From contig NZ_CP152019.1 of the NCBI RefSeq assembly GCF_038622445.1, forward strand, positions 929,501 through 993,500: 64,000 nt of DNA, in the 5' to 3' direction. The stretch comes from Sporosarcina sp. FSL K6-1522 (GTDB taxonomy: Bacteria; Bacillota; Bacilli; Bacillales_A; Planococcaceae). The notes under the pieces are model-generated. The model did no database searches. It saw only the letters and a list, made by a program, of their open reading frames with translations, and was not told the DNA's origin. A program made the position numbers and the translations under genes. This document shows positions 1,343-56,218 of the stretch, one piece after another. The stretch's first letter is position 1. Each line of letters opens with the position of its first letter.

Positions 1343-4300
1343 GTGAAAGGTTTAGTCAATTTTGTCTTGAAGAATAAACTAGCAGTTTGGTTGCTAACAA
1401 TCATTATCGTTGCATCGGGTATCTATTCAGGTACGCGCATGAAAACGGAGACACTTCCGGATATTTCGATTCCATTTTTAATGGTGATGGATGTTTATCC
1501 TGGGGCCACTCCCGAGCAAGTGATGAAAGATGTTTCTATGCCATTAGAGAAAGCGATAGAAAATCTTGAGCATGTAAAATCTGTTTATTCAAACTCCTAT
1601 TCAAATATGTCCAGTATTCAAGTGGAATATGAATATGGTATAGACATGGATGAGGCAAAACGTGCATTAGATGCCGCATTAGACGATGTGTCTTTGCCAG
1701 AGGATGCACAAAAGCCAACAATTACAGCCATTAGTATGAACATGATGCCAGTTGTGGCATTGAGTGTTAGTAGTGAGAAAGAAGATATTGTTGAGCTGAC
1801 ATCGACGGTTGAGGAAATTTTACTTCCGAAAATCACAAAAATTGATGGGGTTGCCTCTGCAACGATTACAGGTCAGCATATTGAAGAAGTACAGTTGACG
1901 TATAACGATGAAAAACTGGCTGAACTAGGTATCACGCCAGATGACGTGAAACAAATGATTCAAGCGAGTGATCTCGCGGTATCACTTGGGATGTACGAAT
2001 TTGAAGAAGGCGAGCAAGCCGTTGCAGTAGACGGTAAGTTCATGACAGTGGATGAATTAAAGGAAATGCTAATTCCTGTCACACCATCTGCAACAAATCC
2101 ATCACCATTTGTGAAGCTTGGCGACATTGCGACAATTGAACTTGTTGGTAAAGTCCAATCGGTTTCGCGTACAAACGGTGAAGATGCCATTGCTATTCAA
2201 ATCATTAAAGGGCAACAAGCAAATACAGTGGATGTTGTAAATGCTGTGAAGAAGTTAGTCAAAGAAGAAGAGAAAGCCATTGACGGTCTTGTTATTGATG
2301 TATCGCTTGACCAAGGTGAACCAATTGAACAATCCGTTTCGACAATGATTGAAAAAGCATTATTTGGTGGAGGAATTGCAATACTGATTATTCTCCTCTT
2401 CCTACGTGATATTAAATCAACGATTATTTCCATCGTATCCATTCCTGTGTCGATTTTCATGGCGTTACTGCTATTGAACTGGATGGATATTACGTTAAAT
2501 ATTATGACGCTTGGAGCGATTACGGTTGCCATCGGTCGTGTCATTGATGACTCGATTGTCGTCGTGGAAAATATTTATCGTCGCTTGCATTTGAAAACAG
2601 AGAAGTTATCGGGCCGAGCGCTTGTGCGTGAAGCGACGATTGAAATGTTCAAACCAATCATGTCTTCAACATTAGTAACTGTTGCAGTATTTGCACCGCT
2701 TATTTTCGTTGGTGGTATGGTCGGAGAGTTGTTCATGCCATTCGCGTTAACAATGACGTTTGCATTAGGTGCTTCGTTAATTGTTGCGATTACAATCGTT
2801 CCTGCATTGTCTCACTTCTTGTTTAAGAAAAAGCTTTATAGTGAGAAAACGGCAAGCAACCATAAGGAAGTTGGTAAATTAGCAAAATGGTATAAAGGTA
2901 TTTTAGCTTGGACGCTTAACCATAAAGTGATTACTTCTATCATTTCAGTTGTTTTGTTAGCTGGAAGTGTGGCGTTAACGCCGTTAATTGGCTTTAGCTT
3001 TATGGGTAGTGAAGAAGAAAAAATGATGTATATCACGTATACGCCGGAAACGGGCGAGCTGATGGAAGATACATTAGCGAATATTGAAGTTGTAGAACAA
3101 GAGCTATTGAAGCGCGATGATATTGATATTGTACAGTTGTCTGTGACGGACGCGAGTGATCCGATGTCTGCAATGATGGGCGGAGGTTCAAATGGTGCGT
3201 TAATGTTCCTCATCTTTGATCCGGACATGAAGAACTTCCCAGAAGCTCGTGCAGAAGTTGAAGATTATGTATTCAACGTCGGTCAAACGGGCGAGTGGAA
3301 GAGCCAAGACTTCGGTTCAATGGGCATGTCTACCAATGAAATCAGCTACACTTTCAACAGTGAAAATTTAGATAGACTAAATGAAGCTGTAAAGATGGTA
3401 GAGGACGTTATGAGTGAAAACAAACGTTTAGAAGATGTTTCTTCTAGTGCGGAAGATGCTTATGTGGAATACAAACTGAAAGTCGAGCAAGACGAATTGT
3501 TGCAGTATGGGTTAACAACAGGGCAAATTGTTATGATGTTGAGTCCAACGCGTACAGAAGATGTCTTAACGACGATTAAAAAAGACGATAATACGCTGAA
3601 AGTCATTGTGCAGCAGGAAGAAGCTGTTCAACCTAAAACAATCGATGAATTACTAGCAACAGAAGTACCGACAGCACTTGGGACGACAATGAAATTGTCT
3701 GAACTGGTAGAAGTGAACAAAGGTACAACATTGAATGCACTTACTCGAAGCCAAGGAGAATACCATGCAACGGTTTCAGGTAAGATTTTGGATGAAGACA
3801 TTTCAAAGGCGACATCAGAAGTGGATAAAGCCATTGATGAATTGAAGTTACCAAAAGGTGTAACAGTCGGGACTGCGGGTGTTGCGGCAGATATGACAGA
3901 AGCCTTTACACAACTAATTGTTGCGATGTTAGCGGCGATTGCCATTGTGTACTTCATCTTAGTGGTGACATTCCGAGAAGGGGTTGCGCCATTCGCAATT
4001 CTTGTATCATTGCCATTCGCAGTGATTGGGTCATTCGTAGGTCTATTGATCGCGGGTGAAACGATTTCAATCTCTGTTATGATGGGTCTATTGATGTTAA
4101 TTGGTATTGTTGTCACGAATGCGATTGTCCTGGTCGACCGGATTATCCGTATGGAGCGTGAAGGTCTGAAAATGCGTGAAGCAGTTCTTGAGGCGGGAGC
4201 GACACGTTTGCGCCCAATTCTTATGACGGCAATCGCAACAATCGGTGCGCTAATTCCGTTAGCAATGGGAACAGGCGGCGGAGGTGGTTTAATCTCCAAA

Positions 4301-4429
4301 GGACTTGGGATCACGGTAATTGGCGGGTTAATCAGTTCAACGTTATTGACGTTGATTGTTGTGCCGATCGTTTATGAGATCTTGTCGAAGTTGTTTAAGA
4401 AAAACCGTATGGAAGTAGAAGAAGATTAA
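1343..4429 (+). CDS. swrC: RND efflux transporter, SwrC/YerP (HAE1/AcrB-like) family
   Basis: This is a proton-driven inner-membrane exporter of about 1028 aa, the normal length for the family, with one N-terminal helix, two large extracytoplasmic loops and two blocks of membrane helices. The central helix motif GRVIDDSIVVVEN (from about residue 398) carries the proton-relay Asp pair, and its counterpart GIVVTNAIVLVDR lies near residue 920. GTG at 1343 is chosen over TTG at 1307 because GGGGAAGGTG sits 5 bases upstream of it. In B. subtilis SwrC exports surfactin and other amphipathic compounds; the substrate here is unknown. No membrane-fusion partner is adjacent, as usual in Gram-positives. 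Confidence 0.92.
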   Translation: MKGLVNFVLKNKLAVWLLTIIIVASGIYSGTRMKTETLPDISIPFLMVMDVYPGATPEQVMKDVSMPLEKAIENLEHVKSVYSNSYSNMSSIQVEYEYGIDMDEAKRALDAALDDVSLPEDAQKPTITAISMNMMPVVALSVSSEKEDIVELTSTVEEILLPKITKIDGVASATITGQHIEEVQLTYNDEKLAELGITPDDVKQMIQASDLAVSLGMYEFEEGEQAVAVDGKFMTVDELKEMLIPVTPSATNPSPFVKLGDIATIELVGKVQSVSRTNGEDAIAIQIIKGQQANTVDVVNAVKKLVKEEEKAIDGLVIDVSLDQGEPIEQSVSTMIEKALFGGGIAILIILLFLRDIKSTIISIVSIPVSIFMALLLLNWMDITLNIMTLGAITVAIGRVIDDSIVVVENIYRRLHLKTEKLSGRALVREATIEMFKPIMSSTLVTVAVFAPLIFVGGMVGELFMPFALTMTFALGASLIVAITIVPALSHFLFKKKLYSEKTASNHKEVGKLAKWYKGILAWTLNHKVITSIISVVLLAGSVALTPLIGFSFMGSEEEKMMYITYTPETGELMEDTLANIEVVEQELLKRDDIDIVQLSVTDASDPMSAMMGGGSNGALMFLIFDPDMKNFPEARAEVEDYVFNVGQTGEWKSQDFGSMGMSTNEISYTFNSENLDRLNEAVKMVEDVMSENKRLEDVSSSAEDAYVEYKLKVEQDELLQYGLTTGQIVMMLSPTRTEDVLTTIKKDDNTLKVIVQQEEAVQPKTIDELLATEVPTALGTTMKLSELVEVNKGTTLNALTRSQGEYHATVSGKILDEDISKATSEVDKAIDELKLPKGVTVGTAGVAADMTEAFTQLIVAMLAAIAIVYFILVVTFREGVAPFAILVSLPFAVIGSFVGLLIAGETISISVMMGLLMLIGIVVTNAIVLVDRIIRMEREGLKMREAVLEAGATRLRPILMTAIATIGALIPLAMGTGGGGGLISKGLGITVIGGLISSTLLTLIVVPIVYEILSKLFKKNRMEVEED

Positions 4430-4432
4430 TCG

Positions 4433-4475
4433 AACAGCCCTACAAGGAGATATGTTTCTTTGTAGGGCTGTTTTT
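4433..4475 (+). terminator. Terminator of swrC
   Basis: ACAGCCCTACAA and TTGTAGGGCTGT form a 12-bp stem around a short loop, followed by TTTTT. It starts 4 bases after the swrC stop codon. Confidence 0.9.
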
Positions 4476-4494
4476 GTGTAGTACGCTTAACAGA

Positions 4495-4523
4495 TTGTAT
4501 AAACATCAAGTGTTTGTTATATT
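4495..4523 (+). promoter_or_regulatory. Sigma-A promoter of the proS T-box transcript
   Basis: TTGTAT (4495-4500) and TATATT (4518-4523) are separated by exactly 17 bases. A start near 4530 would place the whole T-box leader in the transcript. Confidence 0.6.
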
Positions 4524-4529
4524 ATAAGT

Positions 4530-4780
4530 AATATGGAATCTTTGATGTGACCGAGTAGATAAGAATTGTGAACCAGAGAGTCTAGTGTATTGCTGAGAGC
4601 TAGACCACCGCTTCTTATTGAAACCTACCACGGAGATGTTATGCCAACATAACCGAGTCGTTTTCGTTATCAGACGTTTAGAGGGCTTACCAGTTCGGTG
4701 AGCTAAACTAAGGTGGTACCACGTCCATTTCAGCACAAAGACGTCCTTACATGAGGGCATTTTTGTGCTTTTTATTATTT
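4530..4780 (+). ncRNA. T-box leader (tRNA-Pro sensing) upstream of proS
   Basis: The T-box core AAGGTGGTACCACG is exact at 4710-4723. It is followed by a terminator hairpin (GCACAAA at about 4733 pairing with TTTGTGC before TTTTTATT). An AGTAGATAAGAA element lies at the 5' end of Stem I. The best specifier candidate is CCT at 4624-4626, followed by A as expected, which reads as a proline codon and matches the downstream gene. Uncharged tRNA-Pro should stabilise the antiterminator and switch on proS. Stem boundaries were judged by eye. Confidence 0.92.
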
Positions 4781-38841: not shown

Positions 38842-40553
<1,712 letters not shown>

Positions 40554-53727: not shown

Positions 53728-53756
53728 TTGACATTCTATTCGGATACCTGTATTGT
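53728..53756 (+). promoter_or_regulatory. Promoter of the SAM-riboswitch transcript
   Basis: TTGACA (53728-53733) and TATTGT (53751-53756) are 17 bases apart, giving a start near 53763, 20 bases before the riboswitch P1 stem. Confidence 0.65.
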
Positions 53757-53783
53757 TCTATTTACCAACTGAATACGTAACTT

Positions 53784-53951
53784 TCTTATCCAGAGAGGTG
53801 GAGGGACTGGCCCTTTGATACCTCAGCAACAGACTTGTTAAGTACTGTGCTAATTCCAGAAGCAAAGCGTAAAGCTTGTAGCTTGAAGATAAGAAGAGCA
53901 AATAGCGAAACTGCCAAAACCTCTTCTTAAAGTATAGAAGAGGTTTTTTTG
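53784..53951 (+). ncRNA. SAM-I (S-box) riboswitch with terminator
   Basis: P1 is TCTTATC (53784-53790) with GATAAGA (53888-53894). The core AGAGAGGTGGAGGGACTGGC, CCTCAGCAAC and GTGCTAATTCC are essentially consensus. The terminator AACCTCTTCT (53918-53927) with AGAAGAGGTT (53936-53945) has a T7 tail, and AAGAAGAG (53891-53898) can pair with CTCTTCTT to form the antiterminator. High S-adenosylmethionine should therefore stop transcription of the next two genes. Confidence 0.96.
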
Positions 53952-54002
53952 TTCTTTCTGGAGACTAAGGTTACCTTCAAAAATAATGAAGGAGGAATTT
54001 TT

Positions 54003-54740
54003 ATGTCGAATGAATTATTGAATGCAATTACGTTATTAAAAAAGAAAGAGTGGGTCGATTTAACACATACATTTGGGCCTAACTCACCCCATTTCTCGGC
54101 ATTTGATGCTGCGGAATTTACGACGTTATTTGATCATGACGATGGTTTTTTCGCACAGAGCTTTAAATTTGCTGGACAGTACGGAACGCATATTGATGCG
54201 CCCATCCATTTCGTTCGGGATACAAGATATTTAGAGGAACTTGGCTTGAAGGAATTAGTGTTACCGCTCATCGTTATGGATCATTCAACAGAAGCTGCCG
54301 CCAATCATGATTTTACGCTAGCAGTTGAAGATATTTTGAAGTTTGAAGAGCAGCATGGACAAATTGAGGCAGGTACATTTGTAGCGCTGCGCACAGATTG
54401 GAGCAAGCGCTGGCCGGATAACGAAGCGTTCTGCAATAAAGATGCCGAAGGGAATAATCGTATACCCGGTTGGGGGCTTGATGCATTAAAGTTTTTATTC
54501 GAAGAACGACAAGTAAAAGCGGTTGGACATGAAACGTTCGATACCGATTCAGCCATCGATTTTCAAAAGAATCAAGCACTGTTAGGCGAATATTATGTGC
54601 TCGAGCAAGACACCTACCAAATCGAATTACTAACGAATTTAGATAAACTGCCTGCAAAAGGCGCCGTCATTTTCAACATCGTTCCGAAGCCGGAAAAAGC
54701 ATCGGGATTCCCAGTTCGCTCATTCGCGATCCTGCCGTAA
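54003..54740 (+). CDS. Cyclase family protein (PF04199, kynurenine formamidase/isatin hydrolase-like)
   Basis: A 245-aa metal-dependent hydrolase. The motif GQYGTHIDAPIHF is the family's HxGTHxDxPxH metal site with Gln for the first His; VGHETFDTDSA and the C-terminal GFPVRSFAILP also fit. ATG at 54003 follows GGAGGAA. It is the first gene behind a SAM-I riboswitch, which is unexpected for this family and implies a role in methionine or sulfur metabolism. The reaction is unknown. Its 3' end runs into the tandem repeat. Confidence 0.85.
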   Translation: MSNELLNAITLLKKKEWVDLTHTFGPNSPHFSAFDAAEFTTLFDHDDGFFAQSFKFAGQYGTHIDAPIHFVRDTRYLEELGLKELVLPLIVMDHSTEAAANHDFTLAVEDILKFEEQHGQIEAGTFVALRTDWSKRWPDNEAFCNKDAEGNNRIPGWGLDALKFLFEERQVKAVGHETFDTDSAIDFQKNQALLGEYYVLEQDTYQIELLTNLDKLPAKGAVIFNIVPKPEKASGFPVRSFAILP

Positions 54741-54752
54741 TTGCCAGAAATC

Positions 54753-54990
54753 AACTGCTCATTCGCAGTCAACGCCTCGGCGAAAGCATCACTCATTCGT
54801 GATGTAATCTTCGCCCAAAAGAAATCGCCCATTCGCGTTTCCGCAGCACTATCGGGAAGCAACTGCTCATTCGCAGTCAATGCCTCGGCAAAAGCATCAC
54901 TCATTCGTGATGTAATCTTCGCCCAAAAGAAATCGCCCATTCGCGTTTCCGCAGTACAATCTGAAATCAGCTGCTCATTTGCAGTCGATA
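54753..54990. repeat. 108-bp tandem repeat with hairpin modules between cyclase and yxjG-like genes
   Basis: Copy A is 54753-54860, copy B 54861-54968, and a third copy starts at 54969 and fades after ~20 bases. A and B differ in only two places over the first 90 bases. Each unit holds CTGC-TCATTC-GCAG, ATCAC-TCATTC-GTGAT and CG-CCCATT-CGCG, three hairpins sharing a YCATTCG loop/stem phrase. The same phrase, GCTCATTCGCG, occurs in the last codons of the cyclase gene, so the array may have grown from there. No ribosome site supports a gene; open frames here reflect the 108-base period. Confidence 0.85.
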
Positions 54991-55105
54991 ACCTACTAAA
55001 CAAGGTGGAAAAGTTATGTTTTGTGTTAACCTCGAATAAATATAAAGACGCTCATTTGCAATGAGTTGGCGATCCCCCACTAATAATAGAAAGAAGGAAT
55101 TTACT

Positions 55106-56218
55106 ATGACAAACACATCGACTACTTTAACGAAAGCACCATTCAGAGCGGATCACGTAGGAAGTTTGCTACGTCCAGATAACTTGCACCAAGCACGCAA
55201 AGAGTTCAAAGAAGGTACGATTACAGCACGACAGTTGCGGCAAGTGGAAACACAGGAGATTAAGCGTATTGTAGATAAACAAATCGAAGTCGGCTTAGAG
55301 CTTGTAACAGATGGTGAATTTAGACGTACATGGTGGCATCTAGATTTTCTGGAGCATTTGAATGGATTTGAAGGATTTGTCCCTGAGACGGGCTATGTAT
55401 TTGAAGGCGTTGAAACAGAAAGATACAATGTCCGAAACACAGGGAAGATTTCATTTGATCCTGGGCACCCGTTCATCAAAGACTTTGTTGAGTTTAATGA
55501 AATCGTTGGTGGTCGTGCGGTTGCAAAACAAACAATTCCAAGTCCAAACCAGCTATTTAATATAGGCATTCGTGATGAAAACATCTATCCAGACATCGAA
55601 GAATACGCTAAAGATATTATTCAAGCCTACAAAGATGCACTGCATGCATTTTACGAAGCGGGTGTGCGCTACTTGCAACTAGATGATGTATACATTGCTG
55701 GATTATCTGCACCAGATATCCCATTCAATGATGGCGAATATTCAAGAGAGCAACTCATTGACTTGGCATTGCGCGTTATTAATGGCGTATTGGAAGGGAA
55801 ACCGGAAGACTTAGTCGTAACAACGCATTTATGCCGCGGAAACTACCAATCGACATGGGCATTTGAAGGAAGCTATGCATTAATCGCACCAACATTGCTA
55901 GCAAAAGAAAAAGTAGATGGCTTCTTCTTGGAATATGATGATGAGCGTTCAGGCGACTTTGAGCCGTTGGAGCATATCCCGAATGGTGGAGCGAGTGTTG
56001 TCCTTGGCGTCGTCACATCGAAAAATGGAGAAGTAGAAGATAAAGAAGCCGTGAAAGCGCGTATTCAAGAAGCGACAAAACATGTACCACTTGAACAATT
56101 ATGCCTAAGTCCACAATGTGGCTTCGCTTCTACGCATCATGGTAATAAATTGACGGAAGATGAGCAGTGGGAGAAGTTGAAGTTCATCGTCGGTGTAGCG
56201 AAGGAAGTTTGGGGATAA
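55106..56218 (+). CDS. yxjG: MetE-like methyltransferase (YxjG/YxjH family)
   Basis: A 370-aa single-domain relative of the C-terminal half of cobalamin-independent methionine synthase. The start FRADHVGSLLRPDNLHQAR, ELVTDGEFRRTWWHLDFL, the zinc ligands in VTTHLCRGNY (His, Cys) and LSPQCGFAS (Cys) are present. B. subtilis yxjG and yxjH also lie behind S-box leaders, which supports a methyl transfer to homocysteine or a related thiol. The methyl donor is not known from sequence. GAAGGAATTTACT precedes ATG 55106. It is co-transcribed with the cyclase gene. Confidence 0.93.
   Translation: MTNTSTTLTKAPFRADHVGSLLRPDNLHQARKEFKEGTITARQLRQVETQEIKRIVDKQIEVGLELVTDGEFRRTWWHLDFLEHLNGFEGFVPETGYVFEGVETERYNVRNTGKISFDPGHPFIKDFVEFNEIVGGRAVAKQTIPSPNQLFNIGIRDENIYPDIEEYAKDIIQAYKDALHAFYEAGVRYLQLDDVYIAGLSAPDIPFNDGEYSREQLIDLALRVINGVLEGKPEDLVVTTHLCRGNYQSTWAFEGSYALIAPTLLAKEKVDGFFLEYDDERSGDFEPLEHIPNGGASVVLGVVTSKNGEVEDKEAVKARIQEATKHVPLEQLCLSPQCGFASTHHGNKLTEDEQWEKLKFIVGVAKEVWG

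Follow-up and report, generated by a model that had tools for sequence, protein, structure and literature searches.

Several described systems come close to the locus reported here. According to the available text of PMC3771891, the Staphylococcus aureus operon metICFE-mdh includes a gene for a metal-dependent hydrolase (mdh) and is induced by methionine starvation via a T-box, and the leader of the staphylococcal mdh operon senses initiator tRNA-fMet. Another is the classic S-box leader, in which an aptamer responding to S-adenosylmethionine (SAM) is combined with a terminator and an antiterminator. We analysed 64,000 nucleotides of Sporosarcina sp. FSL K6-1522 (contig NZ_CP152019.1, positions 929,501 to 993,500; this whole stretch is called the window), in which a SAM-I riboswitch precedes a gene for a PF04199 cyclase-family hydrolase and a gene for a YxjG-type homocysteine methyltransferase. 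As in metICFE-mdh, the hydrolase lies in a putatively methionine-repressed unit with homocysteine-methylating enzymes. The staphylococcal operon, as far as that text describes it, has a Met T-box together with CodY, five genes and MetE, whereas the window has a SAM-I riboswitch, the hydrolase and, in second place, YxjG. Our results support a real, ordinary switch and a recurrent methionine-linked hydrolase, and disfavour a route specific to YxjG. The features of the locus, in window coordinates, are as follows.

53728-53756, forward strand: promoter-like sigma-70-type site TTGACA-17-TATTGT (10/12 matches)
53783-53895, forward strand: SAM-I (S-box) riboswitch aptamer (covariance match)
53890-53929, forward strand: antiterminator helix (53890-53898 paired to 53921-53929) that shares bases with the P1 3' strand and with the 5' half of the terminator (folding)
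53916-53947, forward strand: riboswitch intrinsic terminator and T run (folding, terminator scan)
54003-54740, forward strand: PF04199 cyclase-family metal-dependent hydrolase, 245 residues (ATG with an AGGAGG-type Shine-Dalgarno sequence, by eye)
54747-54986, no strand assigned: 108-bp tandem repeat, 2.2 copies, in the 369-nt gap between the genes; contains short hairpins with a TCATTC loop
55106-56218, forward strand: YxjG-type homocysteine methyltransferase, 370 residues, PRK06520 subfamily (family models; ATG at 55106)

The aptamer matches RF00162 with 86.9 bits against a gathering threshold of 44.4 (53783-53895, forward strand; E = 3.1e-19; model positions 1-108). The leader RNA from 53783 to 53955 folds at -57.6 kcal/mol (z = -4.97), and 0 of 200 shuffles folded equally well. 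Bases 53890-53898 (UAAGAAGAG) overlap the P1 3' strand and are fully complementary to 53921-53929 (CUCUUCUUA), the 5' half of the terminator. Over the full leader, the aptamer with the terminator (-57.6 kcal/mol) is favoured over a forced antiterminator (-44.0 kcal/mol), a transcript ending at 53932 adopts the antiterminator, and the two structures are, by folding, mutually exclusive. The P1 3' strand and the bases that follow it can pair either within the aptamer or with the terminator 5' half; the arrangement is the usual OFF one, and the leader looks like an ordinary switch that would answer SAM by terminating transcription. Terminator-like sites as a class are near chance (3 found, shuffle mean 2.2), so the case for the terminator rests on its location behind the aptamer; promoter-like sites in the region are likewise not above chance (7 found, shuffle mean 6.2). 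The promoter-like site at 53728 accounts for the coordinate at which the original prediction starts. The covariance match and the folding thus bear out the original prediction of a complete riboswitch, terminator and antiterminator. In all these elements the leader is like classic S-box leaders, and only the gene that it regulates is unusual. A short hairpin, CCTTC...GAAGG at 53974-53992, stands before the hydrolase start with its 3' arm overlapping the Shine-Dalgarno region, and may be due to chance.

The arrangement recurs in relatives, and there the switch accompanies the hydrolase. We used 52 named loci from a pattern-based scan, which is biased to close relatives, and a family sample of 151 evenly drawn genomes, 40 of which carry the hydrolase at E 1e-20 or better; aptamers were found with a covariance model built from 30 aptamers. 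In the family sample, with the window counted, an aptamer lies upstream on the same strand within 500 nt of the hydrolase at 33 of 40 loci, and only 5 of the 40 have an adjacent full YxjG. Accordingly, we assign the riboswitch to the hydrolase rather than to the hydrolase-yxjG pair. Among the named loci, 35 of 52 have a same-strand aptamer within 500 nt and 4 more have one with a single gene between. This amounts to 39 of the 44 Bacillota loci (35 within 500 nt, 4 with an intervening gene), and the 13 loci without an aptamer are eight from gammaproteobacteria plus L036, L042, L043, L049 and L059.

A class-level sample of 35 loci, picked after 96 of 398 genomes had given a match, extends the survey (L123 and L145 share their contigs with the named loci L041 and L042). 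Four of the 35, including L123, have a SAM aptamer. A T-box precedes yxjG-hydrolase in L133 (106.2 bits, above the gathering threshold) and in L134 (88.8 bits, below it), with AUG at the specifier place when read by eye from the sequence; L131 and L138 have yxjG-hydrolase with no switch detected. Methionine control of the hydrolase is confined to part of its range, and its regulation is lineage-specific. The proposal that the cyclase is under methionine control therefore holds for that part, where SAM-I or a T-box recurs.

The genes that share these units point in the same direction. A PF02574 homocysteine methyltransferase lies between aptamer and hydrolase in L052, and a MetI-type enzyme does so in L055, L056 and L068, above the cut-off of PRK08247, a model labelled 'methionine biosynthesis PLP-dependent protein'. 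The order metF-metE-hydrolase is found in five class loci (L124-127 and L137, from BLAST clusters; family models were run for two of the five, namely L125 and the MetE of L126), whose hydrolases are 54-64% identical to that of the window. MetF-MetE, PF02574 or MetI-type enzymes can thus take the place of YxjG. Since the order metF-metE-hydrolase matches metICFE-mdh as given in the available text of PMC3771891, the hydrolase is probably, by gene order and family, an ortholog of staphylococcal mdh, and the earlier description of it as "not a known methionine gene" was too strong. Where it is under methionine control, the hydrolase quite likely serves the homocysteine/methionine node.

The protein itself fits the family to which the original prediction had assigned it, matching PF04199 with 132.9 bits against a curated cut-off of 23.1. 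Bacillus subtilis does not figure among the control genomes with a PF04199 match. Its mechanical open reading frame begins at TTG 53949, with the ATG at 54003. The metal motif reads Q59-Y-G-T-H63-I-D65-A-P-I-H69, so that Gln59 replaces the first His of the classic H-x-G-T-H-x-D-x-P-x-H and the remainder is kept. Gln is found at this position in 130 of 132 alignment rows (five own-genome duplicates removed, same-contig duplicates retained) and in all 33 rows of a second hydrolase alignment (A3). As motif variation within PF04199 is published (PMC5341072), we read Gln59 from these alignments as the mark of a subfamily, with no exclusion from PF04199.

An AlphaFold model of the hydrolase has a predicted local distance difference test (pLDDT) score of 96.4. 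Its best matches in the Protein Data Bank (PDB) are the isatin hydrolases IH-a/IH-b (5nmp, 5nna, 4j0n and 4m8d), with which it has a common fold (TMq 0.90-0.92) at 30-31% identity, followed by a Ruegeria 'cyclase-phosphotriesterase' (TMq 0.84-0.87). It differs from the isatin hydrolases in the Gln for the first motif His, and isatin as its substrate is without support. By its title, structure 4m8d has thioisatinate bound, in our understanding a five-membered thiolactone whose ring has been opened. The model has an isatin-hydrolase fold with an altered metal motif, and the enzyme would be of the Mn/Zn type.

The best overall explanation, which we put forward tentatively, is a SAM-repressed unit in which an mdh-type hydrolase recycles L-homocysteine thiolactone. 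According to the available texts, methionyl-tRNA synthetase (MetRS) produces homocysteine thiolactone from bacteria to humans (PMC11312131), bacterial MetRS edits homocysteine to the thiolactone (PMC11004401), and metH-minus cultures exposed to a sulfa drug have more of the thiolactone in their medium (PMC5070874). At low SAM, the leader would form the antiterminator and polymerase would read into the hydrolase gene and probably into yxjG. Low SAM would suggest low methionine and a high homocysteine:methionine ratio, a scarcity under which MetRS would misactivate and edit more homocysteine, releasing more thiolactone. The hydrolase would then open the five-membered ring of L-homocysteine thiolactone to give homocysteine, which YxjG, MetE or a PF02574 enzyme would methylate, so that the hydrolase would act at the homocysteine node whichever methionine synthase is present. 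Such recycling would explain why different enzymes that use or make homocysteine serve as its partner. L-homocysteine thiolactone as the preferred substrate is possible, if somewhat doubtful. More doubtful still is the general form of the proposal, that Gln-motif PF04199 proteins (mdh) are a dedicated bacterial homocysteine thiolactone hydrolase, controlled by methionine through SAM-I or a Met T-box across lineages and recycling the loss from MetRS editing.

Several observations weigh against this explanation. None of the structures matched (9 sequences; 34 chains, E up to 0.001) bears the name of a homocysteine thiolactone hydrolase, and the fold is no guide to substrate, since members of the family are labelled amidase, carboxylesterase or phosphotriesterase. 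Seven of the 40 family-sample loci have no aptamer, and none was found at any of the eight named gammaproteobacterial loci, five of which were also scanned against all of Rfam. At class level, neither a SAM aptamer or T-box nor MetE or YxjG adjoins the hydrolase at 22 of 35 loci. Two of these (L132, L136) are short stretches, and L116 and L140 have a T-box on the opposite strand at another place in the stretch. With the distant paralogs L146 and L147 excluded, 20 of 33 class orthologs lack methionine-type regulation or partner, among them 13 of 13 non-paralog loci fetched from two Paenibacillaceae-like families (f22 and f3), at 72-80% identity. So many orthologs outside methionine-type control speak against a dedicated methionine enzyme.

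The same orthologs would suit a homoserine lactone hydrolase or a general lactone or ester detoxifier that sits in the methionine operons of some lineages by happenstance, for example to clear homoserine lactone from SAM breakdown. The available text of PMC5341072 is in keeping with this, as it is with the thiolactone reading: ester hydrolysis is shown there for the PF04199 carboxylesterase MGS0169, which has a Gln-modified motif, and trans-dienelactone hydrolase is given the same modified motif; both have two Gln, whereas the window hydrolase has one. We nevertheless consider such a detoxifier unlikely. SAM breakdown should peak at high SAM, when the gene would be off, and the hydrolase has come to stand beside homocysteine enzymes more than once, which favours homocysteine over homoserine.

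An N-acyl amidase is less likely again; it would act on N-formyl-methionine or on N-formyl- or N-acetyl-homocysteine and so recycle methionine or homocysteine. The KynB branch of PF04199 is a formamidase in the available text of PMC4243253, and the sensing of initiator tRNA-fMet by the staphylococcal leader (PMC3771891, available text) would agree with a formylated substrate. KynB structures (4co9, 4cob and 4cog) have the PF04199-type fold in common with our model, at a TMq of 0.71-0.72 and 16-18% identity, and the model is thus nearer to the isatin hydrolases. The metal ligand His50 of KynB is kept in 99.7% of the 336 KynB-like sequences with 30% identity or more (PMC4243253, available text), and since the equivalent residue here is Gln59, as in nearly all aligned rows, we rejected membership in KynB. 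No tryptophan-catabolism gene is present among the six neighbouring proteins typed.

The original prediction had suggested that the cyclase opens or releases a thiol or methyl-carrying compound as a dedicated co-substrate of YxjG, in a two-step methionine salvage. The pairing on which it was built is real. SAM-I-cyclase-yxjG, with a full YxjG at most 400 nt downstream, is found at 15 of the 52 named loci, all 15 with an aptamer and 13 with gaps of 23-112 nt, in seven genera (Sporosarcina, Ornithinibacillus, Virgibacillus, Oceanobacillus, Lentibacillus, Psychrobacillus and Salirhabdus). The suggested search for cyclase-yxjG pairs with a shared S-box thus found a pair that is not unique to this strain, nor did an established unrelated substrate come to light, and either would have spoken against that proposal. 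The T-box-led and switchless yxjG-cyclase pairs of L133, L134, L131 and L138 are also in its favour, as is a Pediococcus plasmid on which yxjG is followed by an amino acid permease gene and then by the hydrolase; no switch was found in the stretch viewed there, with the region before yxjG, across the record start, outside the view.

We consider the proposed route through YxjG itself very unlikely. In the family sample, 35 of 40 hydrolase loci have no adjacent full YxjG, and the two genes occur independently: YxjG at 70% identity or more is present in 32 of 151 genomes, eight of them together with the hydrolase, a number that chance would give (Fisher p = 1.0, without correction for kinship), and with any YxjG at E 1e-60 or better, 13 of the 40 hydrolase genomes share both (p = 0.26, kinship not corrected). 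The replacement of YxjG by MetE, PF02574 or MetI-type genes argues against it as well. So do yxjG loci that have a switch of their own. We inspected 20 yxjG loci without an adjacent hydrolase, from 17 of the 24 YxjG genomes lacking the hydrolase and from three genomes with the hydrolase elsewhere. Nine of them have a SAM aptamer directly upstream (up to 232 nt), two have one about 1.3 kb upstream, and for nine no SAM aptamer was found in the stretch fetched.

Remnants at three loci further suggest that hydrolase and yxjG can each be lost alone. L033 and L067 (the latter on the same contig as L015) have an intact hydrolase, and of yxjG just a C-terminal remnant is left behind it. L149 agrees with the window from the leader up to and including the hydrolase start codon (86% over 129 columns), and next come a 25-base stretch like the hydrolase 3' end and an intact yxjG; this is probably the scar of a hydrolase deletion, a reading weakened by the fact that the 25 bases are also a copy-like hairpin.

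Its closest solved structures, the isatin hydrolases, might suggest that the hydrolase breaks down some unrelated nutrient such as isatin or kynurenine and stands behind an S-box by chance. This is highly improbable, given the recurrence of the aptamer-hydrolase link at 39 of 44 named Bacillota loci, the methionine genes that often share the unit and the absence of an aptamer at the PF04199 paralog in the same genome (L002).

A tree of the hydrolase clarifies how its regulation is distributed. It has 120 rows, with 12 same-contig loci and five own-genome duplicates left out, and one row, L089, was labelled 'none' though it carries a yxjG fragment. Aptamer-linked rows need nine label changes in this tree, at least six of them forced by well-supported branches; therefore, the regulatory setting of the hydrolase probably changed more than once. 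The metE-linked rows fall in one well-supported set together with a plasmid copy, L086, and the T-box rows fall in another, on long branches and with unsure placement. Nearest to the window hydrolase are Sporosarcina rows. Adjoining the Sporosarcina rows, inside Bacillota, the Morganellaceae and Gilliamella rows form one clade (100/100), with support of 97/89 for the wider set and 99/75 at the nearest fork. This nesting makes the gammaproteobacterial hydrolases (L061, L070, L072, L074-L077 and L079, from Proteus, Providencia and Gilliamella) look like a transfer from Bacillales without the riboswitch.

In Providencia, the gene immediately before the hydrolase codes for an NlpA/MetQ-like lipoprotein, and the Proteus gene has a metL/ppc neighbourhood. 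Both may be due to chance, as the clade nests beside Sporosarcina and looks like a transfer without the switch. We looked for MetJ control at the eight gammaproteobacterial loci with a crude 16-base consensus, and rejected it, with at most 12/16 matches and none convincing at a gene start.

Plasmid copies were also seen. A 315-kb plasmid assigned to 'Stenotrophomonas rhizophila' (L087, CP031730.1) is almost identical in gene order to a plasmid of Lysinibacillus fusiformis (L085, NZ_CP130332.1), with a SAM-I aptamer at the same place in both, and is possibly Lysinibacillus DNA in a Stenotrophomonas assembly. The Staphylococcus epidermidis plasmid L086 (NZ_CP121525.1) carries its hydrolase copy beside an IS257-type transposase gene, with an annotated tet(K) on the far side.

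The second gene of the window unit matches PF01717 and the NCBIfam model PRK06520 (NF005085; 452.4 bits, cut-off 313). With 45.8 bits it falls far below the 929.95 bits of the MetE model met_syn_B12ind, in keeping with its length of 370 residues against 786 for the MetE of the same genome, to which it is 20% identical over 332 columns. Residues 11-370 match PDB 1ypx with 398 bits, which is nearly its full length; this YxjG/YxjH-type structure is entitled 'vitamin-B12 independent methionine synthase family protein'. H241, C243 and C338, an H-x-C and a later Cys, align with MetE, at positions that are presumably zinc ligands (the set His, Cys, Glu, Cys). The Glu of MetE has no clean alignment in YxjG, with D278 opposite and E276 two residues away.

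Between the two genes lie 369 nt, compared with 29 nt in Sporosarcina psychrophila (L035). As the terminator scan lists no terminator-like site in this gap, co-transcription of yxjG with the hydrolase is likely. The hairpins in the repeat within the gap all have the loop TCATTC, whereas their self-complementary stems vary (CTGC/GCAG, ATCAC/GTGAT). We considered it as a genome-wide element and found no support for this in the genome of the strain: BLAST of 54741-55060 against that genome gave the self-match only, and no TCATTC-loop hairpin with a stem of at least 5 was found in a search of 400 kb (9% of the genome), made up of 20 stretches of 20 kb each, eight of which had been positioned on matches to the pattern GCTCATTCGC. 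That pattern has 11 matches in the genome, against 4 for a control pattern. The repeat thus seems locus-specific in this genome. Two hairpins similar to it are present in L149. After the hydrolase of Sporosarcina sp. BP05 (L033), about eight units of about 39 bp that resemble the hydrolase 3' end occupy approximately 4246-4535, an array that we interpret as a local amplification of a gene end.

The window hydrolase is one of several targets of this switch class in its genome (4.39 Mb), which has nine SAM-I aptamers. The other units, judged by eye, look like metA, metI-metC, two MetN-type ATPases/transporters, yitJ, metY, metK and an FMN-reductase unit, for which a model confirmed the FMN_red family. 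The full 786-residue MetE is encoded elsewhere and adjoins none of the nine, and the paralog L002, the second PF04199 gene of the genome, has no aptamer either. In the FMN-reductase unit (L093, aptamer at G000:C1:1395685-1395789), the aptamer precedes the reductase gene and an acyl-CoA-dehydrogenase-like gene, the second called by eye; the unit is perhaps a sulfur-scavenging flavin system. Elsewhere in the window, an Rfam match to 5_ureB_sRNA at 38990-39282 on the reverse strand (62.7 bits) is probably urease coding sequence and not a conserved small RNA.

Among the papers listed in our literature searches, none assigns a substrate to mdh or makes a link between PF04199 and SAM-I, a link that we do not claim as unpublished; yxjG is absent from the available text of PMC7857596, cyclase and COG1878 terms from that of PMC3766115, and the cyclase from those of PMC5670726 and PMC4342826. 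A hydrolase for which we found no assigned reaction is part of methionine units in many Bacillales and, to judge from gene order, of the staphylococcal methionine operon as well. Our comparison narrows the question to the homocysteine node, away from a methyl donor specific to YxjG. The thiolactone-detoxifying enzymes paraoxonase 1, bleomycin hydrolase and biphenyl hydrolase-like are described for human or mouse in the available text of PMC11312131. If homocysteine thiolactone is indeed what the hydrolase clears, bacteria would possess a regulated response to a by-product that arises universally when tRNA synthetases edit.

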